Assembly: GCF_013112485.1 (NCBI RefSeq) | Contig: NZ_JABFHG010000002.1 | Span: 434,001 to 498,000, forward strand | Direction of reading: 5' to 3' | DNA from: Roseicella sp. DB1501 | GTDB lineage: Bacteria > Pseudomonadota > Alphaproteobacteria > Acetobacterales > Acetobacteraceae | Length of the DNA stretch: 64,000 nucleotides | Shown here: positions 1,997 through 28,178 of the stretch, one piece after another | Numbering within the stretch: the first letter of the stretch is position 1 | How the letters are laid out: each line of letters begins with the position of its first letter | Made by a program: the position numbers and the translations under genes | Notes under the pieces: model-generated | Told to the model about the DNA's origin: nothing | What the model saw: only the letters and a program-made list of their open reading frames with translations | Database searches by the model: none

Positions 1997-2001
1997 ATCC
2001 C

Positions 2002-2007
2002 TATTTA
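2002..2007 (-). promoter_or_regulatory. TAAAT start-site element before gene 1769-1996
   Basis: TAAATA is read on the minus strand. Its first T lies 11 bases before the ATG at 1996. It forms a divergent pair with the element at 2032. Confidence 0.6.
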
Positions 2008-2031
2008 CGCTGGATATAACTCGCACCCGGC

Positions 2032-2037
2032 TAAATC
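2032..2037 (+). promoter_or_regulatory. TAAAT start-site element before the endonuclease gene
   Basis: TAAATC is followed by AGAG and the GTG start at 2042, with the first T 10 bases upstream of that start. It does not overlap a stop codon. Confidence 0.6.
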
Positions 2038-2041
2038 AGAG

Positions 2042-2383
2042 GTGCGCAACAAATTCGAAAAGCTGGTCGCCAAGGCCCTGCCCGCCGACTACAGGTACGA
2101 AGCCGCACGGCTGACGTATCAGATCCCCGCTTCGACCTATACGCCGGATTGGATATCGCCAGATGGCCGGACAATAATTGAGTCGAAAGGGCGCTTCAGC
2201 GAGGAGGATCGTCGGAAAATGCGGCTCATCCGTCAGCAGTTCCCGCACCTCCGCATCATCATGATTTTTCAGAACCCTAGGACGCGGATCAGCAAGCGCA
2301 GCAAGACGACATACGAGGAGTACGCCAGGAAGATCGGCATCGAGGTCATGACGCTCGGAGAGGTCGCCATACTGCTCGGCTAA
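2042..2383 (+). CDS. T7 endonuclease I-like Holliday junction resolvase
   Basis: The product is a 113-residue nuclease of the phage T7 endonuclease I (gp3) family, which cleaves branched DNA such as replication and recombination intermediates before packaging. The residues expected for the PD-(D/E)xK active site are in register: Glu6 in the N-terminal helix, Asp36 in YTPDW, and Glu47 and Lys49 in IIESKG. The spacings (30, 11 and 2 residues) match the T7 enzyme closely. The downstream DRRKMRLIRQQFP and TTYEEYARKIGI segments also follow the family. The start is GTG. Its place directly before the terminase genes suits debranching of concatemers for packaging. The family assignment is firm; the role here is inferred. 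Confidence 0.9.
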   Translation: MRNKFEKLVAKALPADYRYEAARLTYQIPASTYTPDWISPDGRTIIESKGRFSEEDRRKMRLIRQQFPHLRIIMIFQNPRTRISKRSKTTYEEYARKIGIEVMTLGEVAILLG

Positions 2384-2386
2384 ATT
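2381..2386 (+). promoter_or_regulatory. TAAAT start-site element before terminase small subunit
   Basis: TAAATT contains the TAA stop of the endonuclease gene. Its first T lies 9 bases before the GTG at 2390. Confidence 0.5.
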
Positions 2387-2389
2387 ATC

Positions 2390-2908
2390 GTGGCCGGGCA
2401 ATACTGCCGACACAGGCCGCAATCATGCGGCGCCCGGCCTTCCATCATCTGGCCGAGACCTATGCCCTACCCCCGCAAACCCACTGCACTGAAGAAGCTG
2501 GAAGGCACCGCGCGCAAGGACAGGGTCCTTCCGAACGAGCCGATGCCCGACCGCCTGGTCGCTGACGCTCCGCGCCACCTCAGCAAGCGCGCCAAGCGGG
2601 TCTGGCCCGACTTCGTCACCCTGCTGAACGGGATGGGTGTGCTGACGGTCGCTGACGCCTATGCGCTCGAAGCGGTGGTGGAGTGCTACGCGGAACTCGC
2701 TGATGCCCGTGCGGCGCTGCGGAAGCGCGGATCGACCACCTATGAAGCGAACGGCTTGTGGAAGAGCTACCCAGAAGTTCAAATCGTGGCCGACGCTGAC
2801 AGGCGTTTGAAAGCGTGGCTGACGGAGTTCGGCTGCACGCCCGCGGCGCGGACGAAAGTCTCTGCATCGACGGAGAAGGACGACAAAAACCCCTTCGAGG
2901 AGCTATAA
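2390..2908 (+). CDS. Phage terminase small subunit, P27 family
   Basis: The protein recognises the packaging site and loads the large subunit. From residue 25 it reads MPYPRKPTALKKLEGT, the typical opening of P27-type small terminases. A helical core follows (LSKRAKRVWPDFVTLLNGMGVLTVADAYALEA), then RLKAWLTEFGCTPAARTKV, the family's usual C-terminal helix and loop. Two starts compete. The ATG at 2462 gives the family-like N-terminus but has no clear ribosome binding site. The GTG at 2390 sits the standard distance after a TAAAT element and adds 24 residues. It lies directly upstream of the large-subunit region, as in HK97-type phages. Confidence 0.9.
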   Translation: MAGQYCRHRPQSCGARPSIIWPRPMPYPRKPTALKKLEGTARKDRVLPNEPMPDRLVADAPRHLSKRAKRVWPDFVTLLNGMGVLTVADAYALEAVVECYAELADARAALRKRGSTTYEANGLWKSYPEVQIVADADRRLKAWLTEFGCTPAARTKVSASTEKDDKNPFEEL

Positions 2909-2914
2909 TCGGGG

Positions 2915-3169
2915 ATGAAATCATCCATGTTCGACGCGGCCGTCATGGCCTTGCCACCGCTTCGCCTACCATGTGCAGCCCGCCACGCATCCCGTCCCCC
3001 TGCCCTTCTGCTGGTGCGGCACTGGCTAGGCCAGAATGCCACCGGGGCCTGGTCTATCATCTACGATGCGCCCGGCCGCGCGGTGACGAAGGTCATGTTC
3101 GAGCTAGCGGAGGACCGGGTCCGGTATAGCGCGAGGTGGGGGGCCAAGGCATCGCCGCCCGGCGACTAA
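2915..3169 (+). CDS. Small hypothetical protein between terminase genes
   Basis: This 84-residue frame fills the gap between the small and large terminase genes. Its C-terminal half (GAWSIIYDAPGRAVTKVMF, then ELAEDRVRYSARW) looks like genuine folded protein, and its TAA stop at 3167 is part of the TAAAT element that precedes the large subunit, as for other real genes here. The N-terminal half is Pro, Ala and Arg rich and less convincing. HNH nucleases often occupy this position in HK97-like phages, but no HNH motif is present. The function is unknown. Confidence 0.5.
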   Translation: MKSSMFDAAVMALPPLRLPCAARHASRPPALLLVRHWLGQNATGAWSIIYDAPGRAVTKVMFELAEDRVRYSARWGAKASPPGD

Positions 3170-3172
3170 ATT
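3167..3172 (+). promoter_or_regulatory. TAAAT start-site element before terminase large subunit
   Basis: TAAATT contains the preceding TAA stop. Its first T lies 10 bases before the GTG at 3177. Confidence 0.55.
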
Positions 3173-3176
3173 ATGG

Positions 3177-4871
3177 GTGTTCACTGATTTCCCGCATGTC
3201 GCAGAGGGCGTCGGCTATGCCCGAGACGTGGTCGCTGATGCGATCCCCGCCCCCAAATACGTCAAGCTCGCGTGCCAGCGTTTCCTCGATGACCTGACGG
3301 CCGCGGAAGATCCCGCCTCACCGTGGCAGTTCCGACCCGATCTGGCCGAGAAGCCGATGCGCTTCGCCAGCCTGCTCGAAAATATTAAAGGCCCGCAGGC
3401 GGGGAAGCCGCTCTCCCTCCTCCCCTGGCAGAAGTTCGTCTTCGCCAACATCTTTGGATGGGTCGAGCGCGGCACGGAGACGCGCCGCTTTCGATCAGCG
3501 ACCGTCTGGGTACCTAGGGGCAACGGTAAGACGACCGTCGCCGCACCTATCGCGCTCTATCTCACATTCGTGGAAGGTGAAGGCGGCGCTGAAGGCTATG
3601 CAGCGGCGGTCACCCGCGACCAGGCGAAAATCCTGTTCGATACCGCGAAAAACATGGTCAGCAGGTCGACCAAATTCCGCGCCGCTTACGGCGTTGAGGT
3701 CGGCGCGCATGCCATTTACCAGACCCGAAGCGCCAGCAAGCTCCTGGCGGTCTCCTCTGATGCGAAGGCGCTCGATGGCTTGAACGTGCAGGTCGCCATC
3801 CTGGACGAGATCGGCAGCCATAAGACCCCAGAGGTCTACGACGTCATGCTGACGGCCACAGGCAAGCGGCGCCATCCCCTTCTGCTGTCGATCAGCACCG
3901 CCACAGGGAACCTCGCGGGTATTGGGAAGTCCCTGCACGACTATGCGGCTCGTGTCCTTGAAGGAAAGCAGGCCGATGAGCGCCTATTCGCGGTTATCTG
4001 GGCCGCTGACGCCGAAGATGACATCTGGAACCCGGCGACATGGCGGAAGGTGAATCCATCCTGGGGTTTGGCGGTGCAGCCGGACGCCATCGAGGGCATC
4101 GCAAAGCAAGCCAGGAACAACCCCAGCCAAGAATCCGCCTTCAAAACGAGGCATTTGAACATCTGGGTAGGCGCCGACGATGCCCTCTTCAGCACCTCCG
4201 CCTTCAACGCATGCGCGCGCAAGATAACAATCTCCGACTTTGAGGGCAGAGAGGCGCATATCGGCTGCGATCTATCGAGCAAGATCGATTTGACGGCCAT
4301 CTCCCTCTGCATCCCGGAGCGGCAGCCGGACGGATCTCTGCACTACACTGTGTTTTGCCGCTCATACAACAATCGAGCGTCGGTAGACGAGGCTCGGAAT
4401 GCCGCCTACCCGAACTGGGAGGCTGAGAAGCGTCTGATCGTCACTGACGGGAATACAACGGATTTCGGCACCATTGAGGCCGACATCCTGGATCTCTGCC
4501 GCAGGTTCAAAGTCCTTTCGGTCGCCTACGATCCCTGGAACGCGACGCAGCTAGCACAGCGCCTTGCCGCGGAGGGTGTGCCGGTGGTCGAATATCGGCA
4601 GAACACCGGTACACTGTCGGAACCCACCAAAGAGTTCGATGCCGCGATGCGGAGTGGCCGCCTGCACCACGATGGAGATCCCATCCTCGGCTGGTGCATC
4701 AGTAACGTGGTCGGGCAATACGACGCCCGCGCCAATGTCTACCCAAAGAAGCCACGGAATGAGCAGAAGATCGACACCGCGCTAGCGACCATCATGTCGG
4801 TAGGACGCGCGATGCTGGCCGAACCGGAGGAAGAGTCGCCGTACGAGCACCGCGGTCTCGTGCTTCTCTGA
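3177..4871 (+). CDS. Phage terminase large subunit (HK97-like packaging ATPase-nuclease)
   Basis: The motor packages DNA into the prohead and cuts concatemers. The ATPase half has a Walker A loop VPRGNGKTT at residues 112-120 and a Walker B segment VAILDEI around 206-212, followed by the coupling region VMLTATGKRRHPLLLSIST. The C-terminal RNase H-like nuclease begins near IGCDLSSKIDLTAIS with its first Asp, and later has VAYDPWNATQLA with a second Asp. The length of 564 residues is normal for the Terminase_1 group. The GTG start at 3177 follows a TAAAT element. Small terminase lies upstream and portal downstream. Confidence 0.97.
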   Translation: MFTDFPHVAEGVGYARDVVADAIPAPKYVKLACQRFLDDLTAAEDPASPWQFRPDLAEKPMRFASLLENIKGPQAGKPLSLLPWQKFVFANIFGWVERGTETRRFRSATVWVPRGNGKTTVAAPIALYLTFVEGEGGAEGYAAAVTRDQAKILFDTAKNMVSRSTKFRAAYGVEVGAHAIYQTRSASKLLAVSSDAKALDGLNVQVAILDEIGSHKTPEVYDVMLTATGKRRHPLLLSISTATGNLAGIGKSLHDYAARVLEGKQADERLFAVIWAADAEDDIWNPATWRKVNPSWGLAVQPDAIEGIAKQARNNPSQESAFKTRHLNIWVGADDALFSTSAFNACARKITISDFEGREAHIGCDLSSKIDLTAISLCIPERQPDGSLHYTVFCRSYNNRASVDEARNAAYPNWEAEKRLIVTDGNTTDFGTIEADILDLCRRFKVLSVAYDPWNATQLAQRLAAEGVPVVEYRQNTGTLSEPTKEFDAAMRSGRLHHDGDPILGWCISNVVGQYDARANVYPKKPRNEQKIDTALATIMSVGRAMLAEPEEESPYEHRGLVLL

Positions 4872-4877
4872 CGTAGC

Positions 4878-4883
4878 TAAATA
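4878..4883 (+). promoter_or_regulatory. TAAAT start-site element before portal gene
   Basis: TAAATA lies seven bases after the large-terminase stop. Its first T is 14 bases before the ATG at 4892, the widest spacing of the set. Confidence 0.5.
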
Positions 4884-4891
4884 ACGTCGAA

Positions 4892-6178
4892 ATGTCGAAG
4901 AAGAAGCGGTCGAAATCCGCCTCCCCTGCTGACGTCGGCTTTGCCAGCGATGCCGGAACCCTGCGGTTTCTCGGCGGCCTCGGCATCGATGGAGGCTATA
5001 GCAACACAGGCATCCCGGTCACGCCGCGTTCCGCGCTGACGGCTGCGCCTGTGATGCTCGCCGTGCGGGCGCTATCCGACGATATCGGGAAAATGCCGCT
5101 CCTGGTTGAGCGGCGCCAAGCCAAGGGCGGCTGGGTCACGGATGCCGATCATCCGCTGAATGCCGTCCTGGCGCGGCCTAATCGTTGGCACACCGAGTTC
5201 AGTTTCAAAGCCTACGCGGTCACCAGCTACGCCATGCGGGGCAACAGCTTCACCGTCGTCCTCAGAGACGGCCGCGGCCGGGTCCGTGCCCTGGTGCCGG
5301 TCTCCCCTGACCAAGTGCAGGTGCAGGTAAGCCAGCGCGGGGTGATCGTCTATCAGATCACCCATCCGTTGATCATGAAGGGTGAAAGCATCTGGGTCGA
5401 AGCCTCAGACGTCATGCACACCTTCGGCGTCTCGCTCAATGGCTACACGGGCGTCTCGCCCATCAGCGTCGCTGCCGAGAGCATCGGCGTCACCCTGGCG
5501 ACGCAGCAGCACGGTGCCCGTCTGTTCTCGCAGGGCGCACGGCCGGGTGGCATTCTGTCGACTGACCAGAAGCTATCCGACATCGCTATCACGAATATCA
5601 GCAAGTCGTGGAAAGAGGCGCAGGGCGGGTTGAATGGTGCGCATCGCACCGCCGTCCTTGAAGCCGGGATGAAATATCAGCCCGTCTCCATGAGCAACGA
5701 CGACGCGCAGTTCCTAGAGACCAGGCAGTTCCAGATTCCCGAGATCGCGCGCTGGTTCCGCGTGCCGCCGAGCAAGCTTTTCGACTTCTCTGAGGGGCAC
5801 TACGACAATGTCGAGAGCCAGGAGCGCGCGTACATCAACGACGCCCTGATGCCGATCACGACCAGATTCGAGCAGGAATGGGCTGCGAAGCTCCTATCCC
5901 CGGCCGAGCAGGGCCAGGTCCGCATCCGCTTCGACTACGACGCGCTCGTGCGGGCCAACCAGGTCGATCGGTACAATGCGTACCAGGTCGGCCTGAACAA
6001 CGGCATCTTGAACCGCAACGAAGTTCGTGCGGCCGAGGGCATGACGCCCGTGCCGGGCGGTGACGAGTACCGGGTGAGCGTGCAGAGCCTCCCGCTCGAC
6101 GCAAATGGCCAGCTTCAACAGCCGAATCCGTCGTCCAGCAATCCCGCCGCCGACGCCGCGGAGGACGACGCAGCATGA
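4892..6178 (+). CDS. Phage portal protein, HK97 family
   Basis: The product forms the dodecameric ring at the capsid vertex through which DNA passes. The 428-residue sequence has the family's landmarks: an N-terminal region with VMLAVRALSDDIGKMPLLV, the segment HPLNAVLARPNRWHTEFSF, and RQFQIPEIARWFRVPPSKL near residue 285, followed by ERAYINDALMPITTRFEQEWAAKL. The C-terminus ends in the usual flexible Pro, Ser and Asp stretch. Its stop overlaps the protease start by four bases (6175-6178), giving coupled expression. Confidence 0.97.
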   Translation: MSKKKRSKSASPADVGFASDAGTLRFLGGLGIDGGYSNTGIPVTPRSALTAAPVMLAVRALSDDIGKMPLLVERRQAKGGWVTDADHPLNAVLARPNRWHTEFSFKAYAVTSYAMRGNSFTVVLRDGRGRVRALVPVSPDQVQVQVSQRGVIVYQITHPLIMKGESIWVEASDVMHTFGVSLNGYTGVSPISVAAESIGVTLATQQHGARLFSQGARPGGILSTDQKLSDIAITNISKSWKEAQGGLNGAHRTAVLEAGMKYQPVSMSNDDAQFLETRQFQIPEIARWFRVPPSKLFDFSEGHYDNVESQERAYINDALMPITTRFEQEWAAKLLSPAEQGQVRIRFDYDALVRANQVDRYNAYQVGLNNGILNRNEVRAAEGMTPVPGGDEYRVSVQSLPLDANGQLQQPNPSSSNPAADAAEDDAA

Positions 6179-6840: not shown

Positions 6841-6908
6841 CCCCGGCACACCACCGCAACGCGCGTCAGCGATGCCGCGCGCAATAACAATAAGAAACAG
6901 GTAACCCG

Positions 6909-8255: not shown

Positions 8256-8260
8256 TCGCC

Positions 8261-8431: not shown

Positions 8432-8435
8432 GCCG

Positions 8436-9447: not shown

Positions 9448-9504
9448 TCGCGGGATCGCGATTTTCAGTAGAGTCGTTGCTTAGCTGGCCGCTATGGTCC
9501 ATCC

Positions 9505-9804
9505 ATGCGCCTCACCCCTGCCATCCGCCAGTATCATGATCGCATCGTGGCCCGCCTGAAGGCGGTCGACGCGAAGGAACCCCCTGTCCGCTATGTCGCC
9601 GTCCTCGACATCGCCGTCGAGGAGTTGCAGGCGTTGGAGGAGAGGGAAGCCACAGACGACGATTACACCGACCATAGCGAGATCATCGAGTTCCTGACGG
9701 CGGACCATATCGGTCTGACGGACGATGAGTGGGAGGAACTCTGCTGCACTCCTGACGACCCGGAGCTACGGTCGCAACTGATCGAGAAGTATTGCCCTAA
9801 ATAA
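9505..9804 (+). CDS. Acidic hypothetical protein in the neck module (99 aa)
   Basis: The frame encodes a strongly acidic helical protein with many Asp and Glu residues in its central and C-terminal parts (LEEREATDDDYTDHSEIIEF, LTDDEWEELCCTPDD). I do not recognise the family. It lies between head closure and the gp10-like neck gene and its TAA stop is the end of a TAAATAA sequence. Acidic composition could indicate a tail or neck chaperone, but that is speculation. Confidence 0.75.
   Translation: MRLTPAIRQYHDRIVARLKAVDAKEPPVRYVAVLDIAVEELQALEEREATDDDYTDHSEIIEFLTADHIGLTDDEWEELCCTPDDPELRSQLIEKYCPK
9798..9803 (+). promoter_or_regulatory. TAAAT start-site element before gp10-like gene
   Basis: TAAATA reads into the TAA stop at 9802-9804 and is followed by GGG and the ATG at 9808. 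The first T lies 10 bases upstream of the ATG. Confidence 0.6.
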
Positions 9805-9807
9805 GGG

Positions 9808-10284
9808 ATGCTTCGCCTTCAGCTTTCCGTCTCGTCCTACCAGCTAGCCTACAACAGAAAAAACCTGACGGCGGCTCTCAGGGCCGCCGGACGGATCGTG
9901 GCCGCAAAGGCCCGCAGTTTGATCCTCAGTGCCCCTAAGCCGTCTGTGGCTGGCGGACCCCCGGCGAACCGGACGGGGCTCCTGGCGCGCTCCCTGCTCG
10001 TCCGTGCCCGTGGGTCAACCGCCCGCATCATCGATGCAGCGCAATCGAACGATGCTTTCTACGCGCGATTCCTAGAGACCGGCGCGACCTCTGGCGGCGG
10101 CAGGGGCTTCACCCGCACCCGCGTCGCTGGCCGTGCCAGGCGGAAGGTGACGGGGAAATACACCACCCAGCGCAACATGGCCCCTCGCCCGTTCCTCACC
10201 GCGGCGCTCGAAGCCTCACAGGCCGAGATCGTCCGCCGGGTAGGCGAAGGCGTGGGTGAGGCGATCACCGGGGTCCAGGCATGA
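9808..10284 (+). CDS. HK97 gp10-like neck / tail completion protein
   Basis: The 158-residue basic protein carries the pattern of the gp10-like family: a helical N-terminus with AAGRIVAAKARSLILSAP, then YARFLETGATSGGGRGF, and a C-terminal APRPFLTAALEASQAEIVRRV. Members join tail to head in HK97-like phages. It overlaps the tail terminator gene by four bases (10281-10284), linking the head module directly to the tail module. Confidence 0.88.
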   Translation: MLRLQLSVSSYQLAYNRKNLTAALRAAGRIVAAKARSLILSAPKPSVAGGPPANRTGLLARSLLVRARGSTARIIDAAQSNDAFYARFLETGATSGGGRGFTRTRVAGRARRKVTGKYTTQRNMAPRPFLTAALEASQAEIVRRVGEGVGEAITGVQA

Positions 10285-10815: not shown

Positions 10816-10821
10816 TAAATA
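10816..10821 (+). promoter_or_regulatory. TAAAT start-site element before DUF2635 gene
   Basis: TAAATA is followed by CGGGC and the ATG at 10827. The first T lies 11 bases upstream and the element lies 14 bases after the terminator-protein stop. Confidence 0.6.
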
Positions 10822-15435: not shown

Positions 15436-15564
15436 ATGGAACACCTACATCTCATCATTGCAGAGATCGCCGCAGCCTTAGCTTCATTGGCTAGTTTATT
15501 GCGTGAAATACGGCTGATGCGTTCAACTCGACTGCGAGGTAAGCGATGGTCAACCCCTAAATAG
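15436..15564 (+). CDS. Small amphipathic protein (42 aa) after the tape measure
   Basis: An ATG-initiated frame with a good GGGGAGG ribosome binding site encodes MEHLHLIIAEIAAALASLAS, then a basic tail LLREIRLMRSTRLRGKRWSTPK. The N-terminal half forms an amphipathic or weakly membrane-seeking helix. The upstream 158 bases (15278-15435) are AT-richer than their surroundings and hold no other gene. The TAG stop lies inside the TAAATAG element of the next gene, the same stop-and-element overlap seen for confirmed genes. The function is unknown. Confidence 0.55.
   Translation: MEHLHLIIAEIAAALASLASLLREIRLMRSTRLRGKRWSTPK
15558..15563 (+). promoter_or_regulatory. TAAAT start-site element before DNA-circularization gene
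   Basis: TAAATA merges with the TAG stop of the 42-residue frame and is followed by GGTAT and the ATG at 15569. The first T lies 11 bases upstream of the ATG. Confidence 0.6.
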
Positions 15565-16396: not shown

Positions 16397-17688
16397 CGAC
16401 TGCCGATACCCTGAACGGGCTGGCGACCTCGATTACCGACCTGGCAGAGACGCTGCGGCTCGGCACGCCCGATCCCGCGGATCAGATCCGGCTCCTCTCC
16501 GAACTGGCGCGCTATGGCCGATCACCCGACGTCACCACCGATCCTGTAGGGATCATCGGCTATCGCGCCGCGGGGGCTTCGAACGTCTGGGCATCGTGCA
16601 CCAGGTCGACCAGCGGCAGTTTTATCGATGGCGCGGGCGTCTTCCGTCTGCTGCCGGCTAACCGCGTCCGCCCCTTGTACGCCGGTCCCTACTGCATCGG
16701 CTACTTGAACGAGACGGCGTCGAGCAACCTACAGGTCTACTCGACCAGCATCGTCCCTGGCACCGGCTATAGCACTGGCAGCAACACCGTCGATGGCGGC
16801 GCCGTCCTGGCGCCGGACGGTTCCTTGACGGCCCGGCGTATCGTCAGTGGTGCTGGCGGGCCGGGCAACGTCTACCTCTCCCGCGGCAGCCGCGTGACGG
16901 TCTCGCCCTCCACGACCTACACGGTGTCGTGCTACTACCGCGCGGCGGTGGGAACTCCGAACACCGGCCTGACGGTCGATGAGGTGACGGCAGGGAATGT
17001 GACGACCCGTACGGGCACGCGGAACCTTGGCGCCGCCGGGGTGAACCGCAATGGCTGGACGCGGGTCAGCCGAACCTTCACGACCCGCAGCGATACCGCG
17101 CAGTTGCAGGTCTATTACGCCGACAATCATCAGCCTGGGACCGCCGTCGACGTCTGGGGGACGCAGATCGAGCCGGATGGCCTATCGTCCCTCATTCCGA
17201 CAACCTCCGCCACCGTTTCGCGCGCCGCGGACAATGTCTCGCCGTCGGCCGTCTCTGCCCCGCTGCTGGTGAATGCCGCCCAGAGCCGCGCCGCTGACGG
17301 CATGGCCGCATTGTGCCGTAGGGCTGCGCTGTGCAGCCTCGCCCTTGCCTGTGCGGACTACTACCCTCCCTCGGCCACAGAGGCTCAGAGGACGCTTGCA
17401 GCCGTCCTGGCGCTGTACGATGCGGAGATCCTCTCCTCGGCCGATGCCGGGGACGATGCCGCTTATTCAGCGCTGCGGGCGATGCGTACCGCCGTCAGCC
17501 GCGACCTAACCGAACGGGCGATCAATCTCCCGGAAATCGTGCACGTCAGCCGGGCGGTCTCGCAACCGTCTCTCGTGCAGGCGTATCGCATGTACGGCGA
17601 CGCCGGGCGGGAAGCGGAACTGACCCGCCGGGTCGACCCCCCGCACCCTTTATTCTTCCCAAAAGAGTTCGACGCGCTGTCGTCATAA
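16393..17688 (+). CDS. DNA circularization protein, C-terminal half with inserted beta-sandwich domain
   Basis: Residues 1-45 (TDLAETLRLGTPDPADQIRL, then LSELARYG) and 295-431 (GMAALCRRAALCSLALACA, VSRDLTERAINLP, VQAYRMYGDAGREAEL) follow the second half of Mu gpN-type proteins. Between them, residues about 68-283 form a different module: FIDGAGVFRLLPANRVRPLY, IGYLNETASSNLQVYS, APDGSLTARRIV, SPSTTYTVSCYYRAAVG and GWTRVSRTFTTRSD. That module resembles the carbohydrate-binding-like jelly roll found in phage head-spike and fibre proteins. It would project from the baseplate and could bind host surface sugar. The gene begins in an ATGA overlap with the N-terminal half. Confidence 0.75.
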   Translation: MTTADTLNGLATSITDLAETLRLGTPDPADQIRLLSELARYGRSPDVTTDPVGIIGYRAAGASNVWASCTRSTSGSFIDGAGVFRLLPANRVRPLYAGPYCIGYLNETASSNLQVYSTSIVPGTGYSTGSNTVDGGAVLAPDGSLTARRIVSGAGGPGNVYLSRGSRVTVSPSTTYTVSCYYRAAVGTPNTGLTVDEVTAGNVTTRTGTRNLGAAGVNRNGWTRVSRTFTTRSDTAQLQVYYADNHQPGTAVDVWGTQIEPDGLSSLIPTTSATVSRAADNVSPSAVSAPLLVNAAQSRAADGMAALCRRAALCSLALACADYYPPSATEAQRTLAAVLALYDAEILSSADAGDDAAYSALRAMRTAVSRDLTERAINLPEIVHVSRAVSQPSLVQAYRMYGDAGREAELTRRVDPPHPLFFPKEFDALSS

Positions 17689-17691
17689 ATT
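17686..17691 (+). promoter_or_regulatory. TAAAT start-site element before baseplate hub gene
   Basis: TAAATT contains the TAA stop of the preceding gene and is followed by AAAGC and the ATG at 17697. The first T lies 11 bases upstream of the ATG. Confidence 0.6.
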
Positions 17692-17696: not shown

Positions 17697-18947
17697 ATGG
17701 CGCTTTCCAAAACCTATCAGCCGATTGCAAACGATGCATCGACCGCGCGTACGCCGGCTAGCGACGAACTCCGGATCATCAATCGGACAGAGAACGCGGT
17801 TCTGACAGGCTGGCAGGCGGTCCGCATCAGCCGCGGCATCGAGCGCATGCCGAGTGATTTCGAGGTCTCGCTGACGCAGAAGGTCCCGGACCGATTCTGG
17901 TGTCCGCTCAAAGCCGGGGACGAGATCCAGGTCTCGATCGGCAGCGACGTCGTCCTGACCGGCTACGTCGACCGGATGTCCGTCAGCCTTTCGTCAGACA
18001 CCCACCAGGTAGCGATCGCGGGACGGTCCAAAACCTGCGACCTCATCGATGCGTCCGCGGAGATCCGGGACTGGCGCGGCTATCGCCAGGGCGACACCCT
18101 GATGAGTCTCGCGGAGGAACTCGCCCGGCCCTACGGGATCGAAGTTCGCAGCAACCTCCCGGCGGGCGCCATGCCGACCTTCCCGACGTTCACCGCAAAT
18201 CTGGGCGAATCCGCCTATGAAATCCTAGAGCGTGTGGCCCGGTACTGCGGCGTCCTGGTGACCGATGATGTCGACGGCGCACTATTGCTAACCCGCATTC
18301 AAGAGGTGACCCTGCCGGATGTCGTCACCATCAACGGCCAGTTGGCAGAGGGCAATCTGAAGTCGGCCGGTATCCGCGTCGGTGTTCAGCAGGGTATCAA
18401 CGTCCAGCGCGCGGTACGGCATGTCTCGGTGAGTAGCCGCTTCAGCCGCTATACGGTCTTCCCCCAGTCGGTGGAGACGCAGCGCGACCAGACCGCCGCA
18501 CTGGGCGTGACGATCCCGGACGCCTTCTGCGAAGACGAGTACCTCGGCCGCAATCGCCAACTCTATATTATTTCAGAGCAGTATGATTTGGGCCAGAGCC
18601 TTGCCCAGCGCCGCGCCATCTGGGAGTGCAATCGCCGCGCTGGTCGCGGGCAAGCAACGCTTGCCACCGTCGATAGCTGGCGGGATCGAGACGGCAAACT
18701 CTGGGAGCCGGGTTCGTTTGTCTACACCTATATCGAGGCCGTCGACCAATCGGGTTACCCTCTGGTCGTGGCCGACGTGACCTTTACCCGCGATGTCGAG
18801 ACAGGCACGACCGCGACGCTGACCCTGATGGAACCCGCGGCCTTCGCCATCGCGCCAATGTCCCTGGCGCCAACGACCTGGGATCAGACCCAGGCGTTGC
18901 AGGAGGCCGGTGCAATTACCCAGCCGGTCGCCGGGGGGCATCACTGA
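17697..18947 (+). CDS. Baseplate hub protein (Mu gpP / gp44-like)
   Basis: The 416-residue protein corresponds to the late-control gpD/Mu gp44 type hub that crowns the tail tube. It contains SRGIERMPSDFEVSLTQK, then GDEIQVSIGSDVVLTGYVDR, a conserved tube-like motif, and VAIAGRSKTCDLIDASAE, also typical. A later segment, GESAYEILERVARYCGVLV, matches the family's second domain. Its stop overlaps the start of the spike gene by one base (18947). Order of hub, spike, gp46, gp47 and gp48 is conserved with Mu. Confidence 0.92.
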   Translation: MALSKTYQPIANDASTARTPASDELRIINRTENAVLTGWQAVRISRGIERMPSDFEVSLTQKVPDRFWCPLKAGDEIQVSIGSDVVLTGYVDRMSVSLSSDTHQVAIAGRSKTCDLIDASAEIRDWRGYRQGDTLMSLAEELARPYGIEVRSNLPAGAMPTFPTFTANLGESAYEILERVARYCGVLVTDDVDGALLLTRIQEVTLPDVVTINGQLAEGNLKSAGIRVGVQQGINVQRAVRHVSVSSRFSRYTVFPQSVETQRDQTAALGVTIPDAFCEDEYLGRNRQLYIISEQYDLGQSLAQRRAIWECNRRAGRGQATLATVDSWRDRDGKLWEPGSFVYTYIEAVDQSGYPLVVADVTFTRDVETGTTATLTLMEPAAFAIAPMSLAPTTWDQTQALQEAGAITQPVAGGHH

Positions 18948-19471: not shown

Positions 19472-19692
19472 CCGACGTCGAAACTTTCCCCACATTCTTC
19501 ACCCGCCAGGGCTTCGAGCAGTGGGGGTATGCAGGAATGAGGCGTGAGGCCGAACTGGTGATCACACGGTTTCGGCGGGACAACCCAGATGCAGAGATTG
19601 TCGAGATCGATTACGACATGCGCCGGTTTCTCGGCAAGGGCATTGAGGTCTTCGGCGGAGTGATCATCACATACCGGCGGCCCTCTAAATAG
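19468..19692 (+). CDS. Small hypothetical baseplate-region protein (74 aa)
   Basis: The start MTDVETFPTFFTRQGFEQW is fixed by an ATGA overlap with the spike gene stop. The longer upstream frame is shadow sequence of that gene. The product has a helical RREAELVITRFRRDNPDAEI region and ends in strands with GGVIITYRRPSK. I do not recognise it. Its TAG stop lies inside the TAAATAG element of the gp46 gene. The position suggests a baseplate accessory or chaperone. Confidence 0.75.
   Translation: MTDVETFPTFFTRQGFEQWGYAGMRREAELVITRFRRDNPDAEIVEIDYDMRRFLGKGIEVFGGVIITYRRPSK
19686..19691 (+). promoter_or_regulatory. TAAAT start-site element before gp46 gene
   Basis: TAAATA merges with the upstream TAG stop and is followed by GCCG and the ATG at 19696. 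The first T lies 10 bases upstream of the ATG. Confidence 0.6.
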
Positions 19693-20139: not shown

Positions 20140-20165
20140 CCGACTGAGGGGGAGCGCGCGGCCTA

Positions 20166-20171
20166 TAAATA
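20166..20171 (+). promoter_or_regulatory. TAAAT start-site element before gp47 gene (TATAAATA)
   Basis: The eight bases TATAAATA at 20164-20171 equal the T4 late-promoter consensus. The first T of TAAAT lies 13 bases before the ATG at 20179. It does not overlap a stop codon. Confidence 0.55.
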
Positions 20172-20178
20172 CACGCGC

Positions 20179-21288
20179 ATGCCGTACGCCCGTTCCTCTC
20201 TCTCCGCGCTTCAAAATCAGGCCGTCACCGACGTCGCAGCAGCGCTCCCGACTGGGATGCCGCTCTTCGGGTCGGTGCTCCGCATCCTCGCAACCGCCAT
20301 GGCGGGCTTGATCCACGGGACCCTGGGGTACCTCGATTGGATCGCCAAGCAGTCGGTGCCATTCACCGCCACGCAAGAGAGTTTGGAAGGTTGGGCCGCG
20401 CTGAAGGGCGTCATTCGCATCCCGGCCACGCAGGCCAGCGGCACTGCCACCTTCACCGGCACACCTGGTTATGCCTTGCCGGCAGGGACCATCCTCGTCC
20501 GTGGCGATAGCGTCCAGTATACGACCGCGGCGGATCTGACCCTGACGGGAACCAGCGGCTCGGTAGCGATCACCGCCTCGGTCGCGGGCGCGGCAGGGAA
20601 TGCCGCGGTCGGTTCTGTCCTGACGCTGCAAAGCGCCGTCGCGGGGATCGTCTCCGCCGGCTCGGTCTCGACGGCGGTGGTCGGTGGTGCGGATGCCGAG
20701 AGCGATACGGCCTTCCGGACCCGCATGCTCCTCGCCTACTCAGCGCCAGCCCAGGGCGGGTCCCAGTCCGACTACGTTAACTGGACCCTGGCGGTACCCG
20801 GCGTCACCAGAGCATGGTGCCTGCCGAATGCCAGCGGCCCCGGTACAGTGACGGTCTGGGCTTGCCTCGATGCCGCCCGCGCCAGCTTCAACGGCCTGCC
20901 GCAGGGTAGCACTGGATCTGCCACGCTAGAGACCCGCAGCGCCAGTGCGACGGGCGACCAGCTTATGATCGCGGATGCCCTCTACCCGCTGCGTCCTGCA
21001 ACGGCGCTCGTCACTGTAGCGGCGCCGGCTACGCAGAACGTCAACGTGACGTTGACCAGCCTCTCACCCTACAGCGCGCAAGTCGTCGCAGACATCACCA
21101 CCGCGCTGAAGCAACTGTTCCTCACGATCGGCTCGCCCCTAGGGACGAAAATCTATCCCTCGGATATCGCTGATGCGATCGAGGGTGTCGTAGGAGGAGG
21201 CGGACACTTCATCCTGTCCCCCACTTCCGCGGTCACCATCGCCACCGGCTCGATTCCGGTCCTCGGCACCCTCACGGCGAGCGCCTGA
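20179..21288 (+). CDS. Baseplate J / gp47 family protein
   Basis: The 369-residue protein is the baseplate wedge component related to Mu gp47 and P2 gpJ. Landmarks include GTLGYLDWIAKQSVPFTATQ, LEGWAALKGVIRIPATQASG and the repeated-turn YALPAGTILVRGDSVQYTT. The middle ADAESDTAFRTRMLLAYS and GGSQSDYVNWTLAVPGVTRA segments are strongly conserved in the family. The C-terminal helix TALKQLFLTIGSPLGTKIYP is also typical. The next gene begins three bases after the stop. Confidence 0.95.
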   Translation: MPYARSSLSALQNQAVTDVAAALPTGMPLFGSVLRILATAMAGLIHGTLGYLDWIAKQSVPFTATQESLEGWAALKGVIRIPATQASGTATFTGTPGYALPAGTILVRGDSVQYTTAADLTLTGTSGSVAITASVAGAAGNAAVGSVLTLQSAVAGIVSAGSVSTAVVGGADAESDTAFRTRMLLAYSAPAQGGSQSDYVNWTLAVPGVTRAWCLPNASGPGTVTVWACLDAARASFNGLPQGSTGSATLETRSASATGDQLMIADALYPLRPATALVTVAAPATQNVNVTLTSLSPYSAQVVADITTALKQLFLTIGSPLGTKIYPSDIADAIEGVVGGGGHFILSPTSAVTIATGSIPVLGTLTASA

Positions 21289-21291
21289 TCG

Positions 21292-21888: not shown

Positions 21889-21911
21889 GCCGAGCATTGC
21901 CCGCCGTGTGG

Positions 21912-21917
21912 TAAATA
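21912..21917 (+). promoter_or_regulatory. TAAAT start-site element before first fibre gene
   Basis: TAAATA is followed by GGGC and the ATG at 21922. The first T lies 10 bases upstream of the ATG, and the element is 23 bases after the gp48 stop. Confidence 0.6.
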
Positions 21918-21921
21918 GGGC

Positions 21922-22899: not shown

Positions 22900-23114
22900 T
22901 GCGGATGATCTATACGCCGCAGGACTGGTATTGGGTCGTCGCCCAGGAGACCAATCGACTCTATAGCAGCCGCGCCATCGGCTACGTTCCCCTCGATGAT
23001 GCCGCCTATTCAGCGTGGCGGGCACGCGGCAATGACGCGACCCACATCGTCTCTGAAGCCGAGTTGCAGGACGTCCTGGCGACGCAGTACCCGGCCGGGT
23101 GGCCCGCGGCATGA
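22899..23114 (+). CDS. Small protein between fibre genes (71 aa)
   Basis: The start at 22899 is fixed by overlap with the TGA of the first fibre gene; the longer frame upstream is its shadow. The product reads MRMIYTPQDWYWVVAQETNR, YVPLDDAAYSAWRARGN and EAELQDVLATQYPAGW. This form, with an N-terminal YWVV...VYSS-like strand pair and a C-terminal Leu-rich helix, is common in small phage proteins beside fibre genes. They may be fibre chaperones or tip domains. It overlaps the following gene by four bases. Confidence 0.75.
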   Translation: MRMIYTPQDWYWVVAQETNRLYSSRAIGYVPLDDAAYSAWRARGNDATHIVSEAELQDVLATQYPAGWPAA

Positions 23115-25168
23115 GCAGTGAGGCATATGACATTGAGGTCTGCCAGGGCGCGACATTCGCACATACCCTGACGCTGGCCGACGTCGATCCCACGACAAAG
23201 ATCGAGACGCCCGTCAACCTGGCAGGCTACACGGCCCGCATGCAGGTCCGGCGGAAGCTGGGTGATGCCACTGCGATCATCACCCTGACGACGGAGAATG
23301 GGCGGATCGTCATCTCGCCCTCCACGGGCGTCATCAGCCTGACGATCTCGGCGACCGACACCGCAGCCCTTCCGATCGGCCAGGCCGTCTACGACCTGGA
23401 AATCGTCAAGGGGGCGGTGGTGACGAGGCTGCTGGCCGGGCGCTGCATCGTCTCCGGGGAGGTCACCCGCGATAGCACGTCTTCCACGACCGGCACGCCT
23501 GCGTACGACAATGGCGACACCTATGCCAATCGTTCGGCCGCGACCTCGGCCATGATCGCGCCGACGAAGACGACCATCACCCTACAGGGCTACTCGGCTC
23601 CTGGTGATGGCGGTGGTGCACGCTACAACCGCGTCTCGACCCAGCCCGCGCACCTGCTCTGCCTTCAGTCCGCCGATGGCGCATGGTGGGAGATGGTGCG
23701 GACGCCGCAGATCGATGCCCGCGTCGCCGGTATCTTCCCGGCCCGCGCCGATGCCTCCGGCTCGTACAGCACCATCACGGGCACGGCGGATTGCGCCACC
23801 GGCCTGAACAACCTGATTGATTACCTGCGGGCGCAGGACCCGTTTGGGTACGACGGCGCGGTCATTTGGTTCTGCGAGGGCGTGTGGAATTTCCGCTCTC
23901 CTGTCACGCCGCATCGCGCCACGGTCTTCCGCGCCGCAGGCAATCGCAACACTTCATGGAGCTATCGGCAGGTCGACGCGACCCTTATGCCGACCTTCAT
24001 GCGCTTCCGCGCTCCCGATCTCCCCAACGGGATCAAAGGCGGCGACGCCTGCATCCTGGAAAACATCCAGTTCGGCTGCCAGGAGATCATCGCGGGTTCC
24101 TCGCCGGTCTTCGTCGTTGACCCTAATGTCGATGTCGTATGCCGCTCGTGCTCGTTCGGCCATGCAAAAGCCGATCTGATGTGGGACGTGCAGGGCAGGC
24201 TTGAACTCATCGATTGCACGGCCGGATGGGGAGCCTTCTACTCCGTCAACAGCAGCGCCGTGGCCTTCTACATCCACAACACGAATGCGCGCCTGCGGGT
24301 CCGGAACTTCATCAACGTCACCGGGTCGGGCACGGCCAACCCCGGCACCCTGTTCAAGGTCACCGCTGCACAAGAGGTTCAGATCGCCAACCTGACGGGC
24401 GGACAGATCGCCACTATGGTCGAGATTGCGCCGACGTCTGGCGAGACCGTCTTCGATGTGGCGATCACTACCCCGATCATCACGGTGACGACCAGCGATG
24501 CCATCCGGCTGAATGCCGCCGGGACGATCCGGCGCGTCTCCATCACCGAGCCGTTCATCTCGACGGCCGGGAACAACAATGTCTCTGACACCACGTCCTG
24601 CGGCATCCTTGCGACTGGCGCCGGGACGATCGCGCATCTAGAGATCAACGGCGGGTCCGTGATCACGAGCCGGGGCCACGGCATCCGGGTCGATCGCGCG
24701 CGGTACTTCCGCTCCTCCGCCTCCGTCTATGACAGCAAGAGCGGCTCGGGCCACTACATCGGCACGCAGGTGGTGTCGTTCGACATCCATGCGAAGTCGG
24801 GCTCGAACTGGTATGGCGGCAATGCCCGCTACGGCGTCGAGATCGCTTCGAACACCACCACGACCGCACTGGCGATCACGGGTGACCTGCGGGGCAATAC
24901 CCTCGGCTCGATCCTCGATGGGGCACAGACGTCGGCCATCCGCCGCATCAATGCCATTCGGGACGATAGTGCGGCGCTGACGGTGGGCAGTGGCGCGACG
25001 CTGGTCGACCTCGCCCAGCCGACCCGCTTCCCCGGCTATGCCTTTTCCGGCGTTCCTGCCGCGGCGAGTAACTCGGGCTGCACGATCCGGATCACCGACC
25101 GGAACCACAAACTCGCCACCTCTGACGGCACCGCCTGGCGCTTCGCGGATGGCACTGTGATCGCCTGA
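23111..25168 (+). CDS. Tailspike: baseplate-attachment domain fused to beta-helix
   Basis: The ATG at 23111 is preferred over the GTG at 23099 because it overlaps the upstream stop. Residues 1-110 (YDIEVCQGATFAHTLTLADV, VNLAGYTARMQVRRKL, ISATDTAALPIGQAVYDLEI) match a small phage module usually made as a separate upper-baseplate protein. Residues about 140-685 form a tailspike-type region beginning TTITLQGYSAPGDGGGARYN and continuing with beta-helix-like repeats such as VRNFINVTGSG and SDAIRLNAAGTIRRVSI. The fused form would dock at the baseplate and act on capsule or lipopolysaccharide. The enzymatic residues are not recognisable. Confidence 0.82.
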   Translation: MSSEAYDIEVCQGATFAHTLTLADVDPTTKIETPVNLAGYTARMQVRRKLGDATAIITLTTENGRIVISPSTGVISLTISATDTAALPIGQAVYDLEIVKGAVVTRLLAGRCIVSGEVTRDSTSSTTGTPAYDNGDTYANRSAATSAMIAPTKTTITLQGYSAPGDGGGARYNRVSTQPAHLLCLQSADGAWWEMVRTPQIDARVAGIFPARADASGSYSTITGTADCATGLNNLIDYLRAQDPFGYDGAVIWFCEGVWNFRSPVTPHRATVFRAAGNRNTSWSYRQVDATLMPTFMRFRAPDLPNGIKGGDACILENIQFGCQEIIAGSSPVFVVDPNVDVVCRSCSFGHAKADLMWDVQGRLELIDCTAGWGAFYSVNSSAVAFYIHNTNARLRVRNFINVTGSGTANPGTLFKVTAAQEVQIANLTGGQIATMVEIAPTSGETVFDVAITTPIITVTTSDAIRLNAAGTIRRVSITEPFISTAGNNNVSDTTSCGILATGAGTIAHLEINGGSVITSRGHGIRVDRARYFRSSASVYDSKSGSGHYIGTQVVSFDIHAKSGSNWYGGNARYGVEIASNTTTTALAITGDLRGNTLGSILDGAQTSAIRRINAIRDDSAALTVGSGATLVDLAQPTRFPGYAFSGVPAAASNSGCTIRITDRNHKLATSDGTAWRFADGTVIA

Positions 25169-25206
25169 CGAGGGCGATCCAATCAACACAATAAAAAGGG
25201 CCTTGA

Positions 25207-27762
25207 ATGCCTACGATCGTCCGCATCAGCGATAGCTCCGCCGTCCAGCGCATTGTTCAGGTTAACTCGCCACCCGTGGTGGTTGCAGGTGGGGGCGTGC
25301 AGAGCGTCGCCGGGCGGACAGGTGCGGTCACCCTCTCGACGTCTGACATTGCGGGCTTCAGCGCCGCTGTGGCTGCGGCCTCGCCGGTCCTCAGCGTGTG
25401 CGGGCGCACCGGGGCCATCACCCTGGCGCCGGCTGACGTGGCGGGCTTCAGCGCCGCTGCTGCCGCAGCCGCGCCTGTGCAGTCGGTGGCCGGGCGGACA
25501 GGCGCGGTGACGCTGACGAACTCCGACATCGGCGGGTTTGCCTCTGCTGCCAGTGCGGCTGCCCCTGTGCAGTCTGTGGCTGGCCGAACGGGGACGGTCA
25601 CCATCGCGGCTGCTGACCTTACCGATAGCACGACAGCCGGCCGGGCAATCCTTACCGCCGCGGATGCCTCGGCCCAAAGGTCTGCCCTCGGCCTCGGCAC
25701 TGCTGCCACCCAGCCAGCCGGCGCCTTCGCTGCCGCGTCCCATACCCACGGGATCGCGGACCTGACGGCAACAGGTACCCGCGATGCCACCACCTATTTG
25801 CGAGGCGATGGCACCTGGGCGACCCCGGCGGGCGGTGGTGGCGGATCTGGGACGGTCACGAGCGTTGCGGTCAGTGGTGGCTCGACCGGCCTAACGGTCT
25901 CCGGCTCCCCGGTGACGAGCAGCGGCACCATCACGCTGGCGGGCACTCTTGCGATCGCTGCCGGCGGCACAGGCGCGACCACCGCTTCAGCGGCGCTGAC
26001 GGCGCTCGGCGGGGTAACCTCCTCGCAGGCGGCGGCAGCCGCGCCCGTTCAGTCGGTCGCCGGCAGGACAGGCGCGGTTACGATCGCGGCTGCCGACGTC
26101 ACCGATGCGACCACGGTCGGAAAAGGGCTTTTGACGGCCGCTGACGCCGCTGCCCAGCGGACGGCTCTCGGGCTAGGCACCGCGGCGACATCGGCTTCCA
26201 GCGCCTTTGCGGCGGCCTCCCACACCCATGCCATCGCTGACCTGACGGCGACGGGCACGCGCGACAGCACGACCTTCCTCCGCGGCGATGGGACCTGGTC
26301 CGTCCCTGCCGGCGGTGGTGGCTCGGGAACTGTGACGAGCGTGGCGCTCTCCGGCGGCACCACGGGCCTCACGGTCTCTGGGTCCCCTGTCACCACGAGC
26401 GGGACCATCACCCTGGCGGGGACGCTCGCCGTCGCCAATGGCGGCACGGGCGCGACATCTGCCTCCGCGGCCCTGACGGCCCTAGGTGCGGCTCCTGCCG
26501 CCAGCCCGACGTTTACGGGCACCCTCTCCCTGCCGAGCGGCTCAGCCGGTGCACCGACGATCATCTTCGGCACTGGCACGACCTCCGGCATCTACAGCGC
26601 CGCCACGAACGAACTGTCGATTTCGGTTAGCGGCACTCGCCGGCACGCGATCTTCAGCAGCGGCAATGCCGGCTTCGGCCTCTCCTCCGGCACGGGCAAC
26701 CAGCCTAGCCTTACCGTTGCGACTAATCCCTCTGCCTCGCTGCTCGGTCTCTCGGTCGTCGGGTCCACGACCGGCCCGACGATCTCGATCGGCGCGGCGT
26801 CTGGCGCACCGACCGATGGTGACATCACGATCACACCGCGTGGCTCCGGGCTGGTGCGCATCACCACGGCCACGACCAGCGACAGCAGCACGGCAGCGGC
26901 CAGCACCGCCTTCGTCAAGGCGCAGGGCTATCTCTCCGGCACCGTTCCAGTAGCGAGCGGCGGAACTGGCGCGACCACCGTTGCCGGCGCGCTATCGAAC
27001 CTTGGCGTGCCGAAGGCGAACAGCGCTGCGACCGTCGACCCGACGACTACCGACGATAGTGGCTCCGGCTATGCGGCCGGTTCGCACTGGCTGAATACCA
27101 GCGGCGGCGAAATCTTCATCGCCCGCACAGCGGTGAGCGGCGCGGCCGAGTGGATGGGCCTCTCGCCCATGGACCATCCAGGCTACGTCAGCGGGTTGTG
27201 GTACGGCACGCAGCCGAATGCGGTGATCACCACGGGTGCCTATCCGACCGGGTCGATGCTGTTCAGCCCCATGACGGTAATGTTCCGTGTGTCTGTCACG
27301 AACATTTCGTTCTACATGGTCACTACCGCAACATCCGGGGGAGCGACAGCCGCGTATGCGAAGGTCGGTCTCTACAGCAACTCCGGCGGACGGCCTGCAA
27401 ACCTGCTGGCAGAGTGCAACGCCGATATCGACCTCACGACGGGCCAGATCAAGACAGCTACATTTGCGTCCGCGGTCACACTGAACCCCGGTGTCTACTG
27501 GGTCGGGATCGTCACGCAAGGGACGAACGCGCCCGTATTCGTATCCTGGTCGAACACGGCGGGTGGTGGTGGATTCGTCAATATCGTTGGCGGCCTCACT
27601 GGCGGCGCCTTTATGGCCGGTGGCCAGCTAATCAACCGGATGGCGCGCAATACCGCACCGACCTACGTTGCAGGCAGTGCGTTCCTGCCGGCGACCGCAG
27701 GCGCGGTGACGATTTCCGGAACATCGCCGGGTAGCATCGTGTTCATGTTCCAGGCGCCGTGA
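25207..27762 (+). CDS. Long tail fibre protein with internal repeats
   Basis: The 851-residue fibre has four 30-residue units from residue 31 with the core VQSVAGRTGAVTL...DI.GF, and then a 160-residue block repeated once. The middle (GTVTSVAVSGGSTGLTVSG, LAIAAGGTGATTASAALTAL) is the typical GGTGATT phage-fibre repeat. Residues about 655-851 form a distinct globular tip starting GYVSGLWYGTQPNAVITTGA and ending in strand-rich sequence, the probable receptor-binding end. A purine-rich AAAAAGGG site precedes the start. It is the third fibre-like gene in the cluster. Confidence 0.9.
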   Translation: MPTIVRISDSSAVQRIVQVNSPPVVVAGGGVQSVAGRTGAVTLSTSDIAGFSAAVAAASPVLSVCGRTGAITLAPADVAGFSAAAAAAAPVQSVAGRTGAVTLTNSDIGGFASAASAAAPVQSVAGRTGTVTIAAADLTDSTTAGRAILTAADASAQRSALGLGTAATQPAGAFAAASHTHGIADLTATGTRDATTYLRGDGTWATPAGGGGGSGTVTSVAVSGGSTGLTVSGSPVTSSGTITLAGTLAIAAGGTGATTASAALTALGGVTSSQAAAAAPVQSVAGRTGAVTIAAADVTDATTVGKGLLTAADAAAQRTALGLGTAATSASSAFAAASHTHAIADLTATGTRDSTTFLRGDGTWSVPAGGGGSGTVTSVALSGGTTGLTVSGSPVTTSGTITLAGTLAVANGGTGATSASAALTALGAAPAASPTFTGTLSLPSGSAGAPTIIFGTGTTSGIYSAATNELSISVSGTRRHAIFSSGNAGFGLSSGTGNQPSLTVATNPSASLLGLSVVGSTTGPTISIGAASGAPTDGDITITPRGSGLVRITTATTSDSSTAAASTAFVKAQGYLSGTVPVASGGTGATTVAGALSNLGVPKANSAATVDPTTTDDSGSGYAAGSHWLNTSGGEIFIARTAVSGAAEWMGLSPMDHPGYVSGLWYGTQPNAVITTGAYPTGSMLFSPMTVMFRVSVTNISFYMVTTATSGGATAAYAKVGLYSNSGGRPANLLAECNADIDLTTGQIKTATFASAVTLNPGVYWVGIVTQGTNAPVFVSWSNTAGGGGFVNIVGGLTGGAFMAGGQLINRMARNTAPTYVAGSAFLPATAGAVTISGTSPGSIVFMFQAP
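25297..26520 (+). repeat. Coding repeats in the long tail fibre gene
   Basis: Ninety-base units begin at 25297, 25387, 25477 and 25567, each encoding V-x-SV-x-GRTGA. The unit at 25567 starts a larger block of 480 bases that is repeated from 26047 to about 26520, including the ADLTATGTRD, FLRGDGTW and GGTGAT segments. The copies are similar but not identical. Confidence 0.9.
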
Positions 27763-28019
27763 CGCAAGACGCCGCGGCCATCGCGGCGCAAGGACTGCTG
27801 GCACAAATGCAAAGCAGTCCTCCGGCGGCCGGGTGGCACGCGGTTATGCGCGATGCAGTGTTGTGGAATGGCTACTTTGTCGAGACGTCGCGCCAGGTCT
27901 TCAGCCGACCGTACGTCAGCATGCTGCTGACCGCACAGGAGCAGGCCGAGGCCATGCGGCTGGCGCACGAGACTGTCGTGCGCGAGTACCGCAGGCAGTT
28001 TGCCGGACGGCTTAGCTAA
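27759..28019 (+). CDS. Hypothetical protein after the long fibre (86 aa)
   Basis: A GTG start overlaps the fibre stop by four bases. The product is helical, with AAQGLLAQMQSSPPAAGWHA, a central VLWNGYFVETSRQVFSRPYV and a final helix LTAQEQAEAMRLAHETVVRE. I do not recognise the family. Coupling to the fibre gene suggests a fibre assembly or tip protein. It is the last plus-strand gene of the prophage. Confidence 0.7.
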   Translation: MTQDAAAIAAQGLLAQMQSSPPAAGWHAVMRDAVLWNGYFVETSRQVFSRPYVSMLLTAQEQAEAMRLAHETVVREYRRQFAGRLS

Positions 28020-28020
28020 C

Positions 28021-28032
28021 GGTTAGCTAACC
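28021..28032. terminator. 12-base perfect palindrome between convergent genes
   Basis: GGTTAGCTAACC is fully self-complementary and is preceded by a second TTAGCTAAC at 28012-28020. It sits exactly between the stops of two convergent genes (28019 and 28033). A bidirectional terminator or a protein-binding site are both possible; there is no T-run. Confidence 0.35.
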
Positions 28033-28167
28033 TCAGATGCCGAGCGGGATGTATCGCCAGAGGCCGTCGTACCAAACCTCGATGGCGGCATTGTCGATGT
28101 TGAAGAATAGCTCGCCATCGGCGGGATTGGCGGGACGCTCGGCAGTGGTGCCACAAGGGATTTGCAT
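28033..28167 (-). CDS. Fibre-tip-like small protein (44 aa)
   Basis: The product begins MQIPCGTTAERPANPADGEL and ends with FFNIDNAAIEVWYDGLWRYI. This RPANP..GELFFN....IEVW..G.W pattern is widespread as a short module inside phage tail fibres, but here it is a free-standing gene on the opposite strand. The ATG at 28167 was chosen because a TAAAT element lies 11 bases before it; the longer frame to 28278 has no such support. It is the last gene of a reverse cluster running from 29379. Confidence 0.65.
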   Translation of the reverse strand: MQIPCGTTAERPANPADGELFFNIDNAAIEVWYDGLWRYIPLGI

Positions 28168-28172
28168 GCAGG

Positions 28173-28178
28173 GATTTA
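28173..28178 (-). promoter_or_regulatory. TAAAT start-site element before gene 28033-28167
   Basis: Read on the minus strand, TAAATC contains the TAA stop of the upstream 70-residue gene and is followed by CCTGC and the ATG at 28167. The first T lies 11 bases upstream of the ATG. Confidence 0.55.

Follow-up and report, generated by a model that had tools for sequence, protein, structure and literature searches.

Why does one prophage place the same short A/T-rich word directly before so many of its start codons, on both strands? The question was raised by a sequence-only reading of the window, by which we mean the whole 64,000-nucleotide stretch of Roseicella sp. DB1501 DNA under analysis (contig NZ_JABFHG010000002.1, positions 434,001 to 498,000; negative coordinates lie upstream of it). 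Three roles had been offered for the word TAAAT: a near-leaderless promoter, a substitute for the Shine-Dalgarno sequence and a stop-restart junction element. The observation itself is real and strongly non-random. As for the roles, our analysis supports the first and not the other two, since related prophages keep the element at the same gene junctions and change its distance to the start, from 10-14 to 31-43 bases.

The TAAAT sites and the extent of the prophage

At all thirteen starts listed for the prophage, the first T of a TAAAT word indeed lies 9-14 bases upstream, ten of the distances being exactly 10 or 11. At a distance of 10 we found the words at 2032-2036 before GTG 2042, which opens an endonuclease gene (2042-2383, family match to phrog_945), at 3167-3171 before GTG 3177 of the terminase large subunit gene (3177-4871) and, extended to TAAATA, at 9798-9803 before ATG 9808, 19686-19691 before ATG 19696 and 21912-21917 before ATG 21922. 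At 11 bases stand the minus-strand words at 2003-2007 and 28174-28178, before ATG 1996(-) and ATG 28167(-), the word at 17686-17690 before ATG 17697 of the baseplate hub gene (17697-18947), and TAAATA at 10816-10821 and 15558-15563 before ATG 10827 and ATG 15569. Among the remaining three, TAAATA at 4878-4883 lies 14 bases before the portal gene (4892-6178) and TAAATA at 20166-20171 lies 13 bases before ATG 20179 of a baseplate wedge subunit gene (20179-21288). The third, at 2381-2385 on the stop of gene 2042, is 9 bases from GTG 2390 and 81 from ATG 2462; the distance of 9 stands and the GTG start is doubtful, ATG 2462 being the likelier start of TerS since similarity to the TerS family starts only at residue 25. 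Directly upstream of 20179 the sequence reads TATAAATA, and the remark that this is the T4 late-promoter consensus holds, as does the description of a further word, TAAATGGGTCATG, at 29550(-), where the ATG frame has four codons. Overlap with the preceding stop codon had been claimed for seven sites: six stand (2390, 3177, 9808, 15569, 17697 and 19696), and the seventh (10827) involves a doubtful 65-aa ORF.

The prophage had been taken to begin at 2001. In fact, prophage-like genes reach upstream past the window start, as far as the gene of a large serine recombinase near -14159; the prophage thus covers about 43 kb (the 43.1-kb region below) and starts about 14 kb before the window. In this upstream part TAAAT precedes ATG at -2364(-), -2116(+) and -1168(-), at distances of 10, 11 and 10, and TTG at -6642 and -1115, at 13 and 9, the latter case being doubtful. 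Altogether, the element is found before many small gene groups on both strands. The opposite-strand genes 1996(-), 28167(-), -2364(-) and -1168(-) have a copy each; others, such as 28978(-), -207(-) and -6792(-), have none, and the TAAATA words at -2957(+), -423(+) and -2141(-) have no start 9-14 bases downstream.

Several features of the region were noted in passing. The products at -2364(-) and -2116(+) look small and membrane-like by eye. About 65 bases after the startless TAAATA at -2957 comes a terminator-like hairpin (-2957 to -2851, L063:17043-17149), an arrangement that could yield a short untranslated RNA. Three TAAAT pairs stand back to back (-2141/-2127, -1158/-1124 and 2007/2032), with their first bases 14, 34 and 25 apart. 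On the minus strand, L063:10503-12553 (window -9497 to -7447) appears by eye to hold a DNA polymerase A-like gene split into two frames that share 4 bases, one for the polymerase part and one for an exonuclease-like part. A 351-aa ORF with a TTG start (177-1232), in a stretch of 52.7% GC, resembles, by eye, a repeat protein that has membrane helices, and may be a cargo gene. The right end of the prophage holds two minus-strand ORFs, 28469-28978, which has no Pfam or PHROG match, and 29083-29385.

Enrichment in the prophage and rarity in the host

The 43.1-kb prophage contains 27 TAAAT words, and 11 of them are followed by ATG at +10 or +11. As a control, each word was moved by 20-300 bases in 20,000 trials, which gave a mean of 0.88 and a maximum of 6; the observed count is above all of these shifted controls. 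When all 5-mers with at least 5 copies in this region were ranked, independently of gene calls, by the fraction of copies with ATG at 9-11, TAAAT came first (11 of 27, where other offsets would predict about 1.2), and other A/T-rich 5-mers were less enriched, the overlapping AAATA excepted. Under a dinucleotide model, TAAATA is found 15 times against 2.4 expected, and TAAAT as a whole 27 times against 18.8. Throughout the 5.99-Mb genome the pattern TAAATAN{4,5}ATG has 9 matches, 8 of them inside the prophage; the reversed control has 1.

Chromosomal genes in the window had been said to lack the element. In 598.8 kb of host DNA there are 16 TAAAT words, only one of them TAAATA, and none of the 16 has ATG at 9-12 bases. 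A single word with GTG at 10 was seen in a 199.8-kb host subset, and no TANNNT peak is present upstream of host ATGs.

Distribution among phages of the host family

The comparison of the same starts in relatives gave a divided answer: the element is absent from terminase relatives at 58-64% identity (metagenomes and Roseomonas, Pseudoroseomonas and Belnapia genomes), and it is present in two other prophages, G241, from the same genus, and G299, from another genus. A candidate word in Belnapia, 40 bases before a GTG, was rejected as the frame there opens only 23 codons. Upstream of the terminase, no TAAAT was found in 11 of the 12 loci inspected, a set in which L009 and L010 start inside the gene; the twelfth locus is the prophage's own copy, L001. 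TAAATA is likewise never found upstream of called genes in 27 other loci, 25 of them distinct (L092/L100 and L093/L101 are the same contigs). With a looser count based on open frames, two of these 25 had a few sites (L018, 1 near and 1 far of 3; L017, 3 middle and 1 far of 17), and control words behaved alike there. In a second batch of 97 loci, TAAATA was found upstream of called genes in 12: the prophage's own copy L224 (2), the AT-rich L184 (5 against a mean of 3.07), L202 (2 against 0.93) and nine loci with 1. We judged that none besides the own copy was clearly above other words. Fourteen genomes chosen as outliers of the family in pattern counts yielded one cluster, that of G299, and contig C101 of G241 was rejected as a signature phage.

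The G241 prophage lies on contigs C311 and C121, which, judging from gene order, probably form one element; its terminase and sheath are 35% and 59% identical to those of the Roseicella prophage. That of G299 occupies about 115-153 kb of contig C3, with 14 homologous genes by tblastn (22-38% identity) and 18 homologous structural genes once blastp was added. Upstream of called genes, TAAATA is the most frequent of the 15 A4T2 words in all three prophages, with 8 occurrences against a mean of 0.79 for the other words in our prophage, 12 against 1.36 in G299 and 4 against 0.14 in G241. In G299, 22 copies are on the + strand, where most genes are, and 2 on the other, against 6.8 and 5.0 expected.

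This distribution bears on the first alternative, namely that the sites are ordinary host sigma-70 promoters with a strong -10 that are leaderless by chance. In its favor, leaderless mRNAs occur in Alphaproteobacteria: the excerpted reports give 375 in Caulobacter, translated as well as other mRNAs (PMC4117421), and 62 (5%) in Gluconobacter, of which 57 start with ATG (PMC5756330). Against it stand the host counts above, with a single TAAATA and no TANNNT peak upstream of ATGs, and the lack of the element in other phages of the same host family. Furthermore, the sites have no conserved -35 column: no upstream column exceeds 0.55 bits in the 15 own sites, and only position -1 does so in the 24 G299 sites. 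The Gluconobacter -10, as given in the same excerpt, also differs, being a lax Tatnnn accompanied by a ttGnnn -35 (PMC5756330). We consequently find this explanation unlikely.

Shine-Dalgarno pairing and the distance to the start

A second alternative is that an AU-rich mRNA word, bound by the ribosome or by S1 about 10 bases upstream, replaces the Shine-Dalgarno sequence. The word does sit in the Shine-Dalgarno position, and the starts that carry it pair poorly: the mean Shine-Dalgarno energy is -1.1 at 15 hand-picked TAAAT starts of the prophage against -6.0 at 29 others (p = 4e-5). TAAAT implanted in random prophage DNA gave a mean of -1.9, and 90% of 300 implanted sets paired at least as strongly as observed; TAAAT starts thus pair with the anti-Shine-Dalgarno no more than chance would have it, and in both the energy test and the implant control they failed to show complementarity to the 16S 3' end. 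Most other prophage starts have a Shine-Dalgarno or overlap the preceding gene; exceptions with neither feature are few and include -4161, 12536 and -14159.

In the relatives, however, the word often lies farther upstream. Counting any ATG or GTG that opens at least 60 codons, the numbers of TAAATA at 9-14, 15-30 and 31-43 bases before the frame are 10, 0 and 0 of 15 in our prophage, 3, 0 and 9 of 24 in G299 and 1, 1 and 3 of 6 in G241. For the control word ATAAAT the same bins hold 2, 0 and 0 of 6, 1, 0 and 4 of 22, and 0, 1 and 1 of 3, respectively. The two-peak pattern depends on the use of open frames, since G299 distances to ATG alone, taken independently of gene calls, are widely spread. 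In G241 and G299 together, ten far sites have a mean pairing energy of -6.9, and four near sites have -3.1, -2.9, 0.6 and 2.3.

Some of the far genes are orthologues of near genes of our prophage. The portal junction has the word at 14 bases in our prophage, at 10 (and 27) in G241 and at 35 in G299. That of gene 10827 has it at 11 and, with a leader, at 36 in G241; that of gene 20179 at 13 and, in G299, at 40; that of gene 21922 at 10 and, in G299, at 37, the match there being 31 residues at the N terminus. At TerS the distance is 9 (GTG 2390) or 81 (ATG 2462) in our prophage, 33 in G241 and 35 in G299. Not every junction is kept: G299 lacks the element at TerL, 9808, 15569, the hub and 19696, all five of which have it in our prophage; in G241 it is missing at TerL and 9808; and, among the junctions compared, those of MCP, TMP and sheath have it in G299 only, the last at 61 bases.

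Two far copies in G299, at 127342 and 134833, come directly after terminator-like stems (L118:2309-2330 and 9798-9826). Together with one at 6065, these stems have the most GC pairs among the terminator-like sites of L118, which as a class hardly exceed the number in shuffled sequence (18 against 17.3).

Ribosomes could hardly use one signal at both 10 and 36 bases, and a translation signal is improbable because the relatives keep the junctions and change the distance. In G241 and G299 the far copies moreover stand before genes with their own Shine-Dalgarno, two of them behind terminator-like stems; in our prophage the word is more enriched than other A/T-rich 5-mers, AAATA excepted, and host genes do not use it. 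We give ribosome contact slightly less credit than host promoters. A role at stop-restart junctions, or an origin as a mere side effect of TAA stops that lie close to the next start in GC-rich DNA, is very improbable: six words of the window do overlap the preceding stop, but in varying registers (TAA at word offset 0, or TAA or TAG at offset 4), 2042, 4892, 20179, 21922 and the opposite-strand sites overlap none, and other A4T2 words are not enriched.

Further details of the relatives were noted. A similar stem before the TAAATA at 132095 in G299 was suspected by eye, but the scan did not find it. At G299:C3:139022 and 149213 (L118 and L119) the leader could, judged by eye, fold into a perfect stem running from TAAATA itself to the Shine-Dalgarno, with TACCTCA...TGAGGTA in one case and TACCTTCGAA...TTCGAAGGTA in the other. 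At L095:4563-4536 (minus strand) the portal gene has two upstream TAAATA words, 17 bases apart, and a two-codon frame, ATGCGGTAA, follows the first of them.

A putative phage-specific promoter

We propose that VTAAATA (V = A, C or G) serves as the -10 of a T4-late-like promoter that is specific to the phage and has no conserved -35, and that nearly all copies next to genes of this prophage are positioned so as to give leaderless transcripts; from the arrangement of the sites, we consider this reading probable. Such promoters would lead numerous short gene groups in either orientation, and would be recognized by a phage factor or by a phage-altered polymerase. At near sites, transcription would begin at the start codon or at most about 3 nt before it, and the genes would then be translated from leaderless mRNAs. 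The near-empty bin at 15-30 bases fits such a promoter, because a transcript would either start at the codon or leave room for a Shine-Dalgarno.

The comparison with T4-type late promoters lends this promoter reading a defined geometry. According to the excerpted report, the T4 late promoter TATAAATA spans -13 to -6 and is read by the phage sigma factor gp55, and the Aeh1 late promoter CTAAATA starts at -12 (PMC1524935). Applying this spacing puts +1 exactly at the start codon for the sites at 11; those at 13-14 would leave 2-3 nt, and those at 10 would require a start one base nearer. The T4-type core VTAAATA is present in 10 of the 15 listed own sites (TAAAT is in all 15 by selection), and the base before the word is never T, neither in the 15 own sites nor in the 24 of G299. 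Against the leaderless reading, two or three genes with the element have GTG as start codon, a choice that is rare among the leaderless mRNAs of Gluconobacter according to the excerpt (PMC5756330).

Search for a reading factor

One would wonder which protein could read such a promoter. The gp55 family, taken as phrog_234 via the T4 record, gave nothing at E<=1 in the Roseicella genome (G000) or in G299. In G241 a single match was found, at E 0.3, and the gene concerned matches sigma-70 region 2 as well; the E limit is lax, as 7 of 14 control genomes also have phrog_234 matches. The host genome has 13 matches to sigma-70 region 2, none of them inside the prophage. Scans of 13 prophage ORFs of no assigned role against Pfam and PHROGs (seven in both) gave no sigma match, and blastp of the own frames against G241 and G299 gave no sigma-like candidate for a common regulator. 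The shared genes are structural genes, an HNH nuclease (both relatives) and a small zinc-ribbon protein at -114..122 (G241 only). The structure predicted for an orphan early protein of 162 aa has a mean pLDDT of 41, too low to be informative. The element would thus work like a T4 late promoter, yet we do not class it as one because no gp55 match and no shared regulator were found.

A more tentative hypothesis, to which we give somewhat less than even chances, is that a lineage of small temperate phages of this bacterial family encodes an unrecognized factor, either sigma-like or modifying the polymerase and unrelated in sequence to gp55, that reads a T4-late-like promoter with a -10 only, and that in one of these phages almost all promoters have gone from leadered to leaderless, bypassing the Shine-Dalgarno for its late genes. 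If the element is a promoter of this type, T4-late-type promoters would extend to small temperate phages with no detected gp55. It would also point to a new transcription factor that the comparison of a few genomes could expose. Finally, orthologous promoters with and without a leader would amount to a natural experiment, showing the move of a phage to leaderless translation.

Comparison with known systems

Searches of the open-licence literature listed no description of a TAAAT element for phages of this host family; parallels can be drawn with other phages. In cluster K mycobacteriophages, the excerpted paper describes a Start-Associated Sequence, the 13-bp GGGATAGGAGCCC, typically 3-7 bp from the start and containing AGGAG, which was proposed to act in translation and occurs only in the non-structural half of the genome (PMC3203893). 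Like the present element, it is a short, directional, phage-specific repeat near many starts, sometimes lying over the previous stop and absent from the host. The TAAAT element is nevertheless not one of these sequences, as both its word and its distance differ.

Another parallel is offered by the Thermus phage phiYS40, most of whose middle and late mRNAs are leaderless, according to the excerpt (PMC3594737). Phage and host are unrelated to ours, and the likeness lies in phage-wide leaderless expression, here a predicted outcome only.

The closest likeness is to the T4-type late promoters. Unlike these, the present element belongs to a small temperate phage with a contractile tail, in which no gp55 homologue was found, and its placement is mostly leaderless. 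The two nonetheless have in common the core word, its distance to the inferred +1, the lack of a -35 and the many copies before gene groups.
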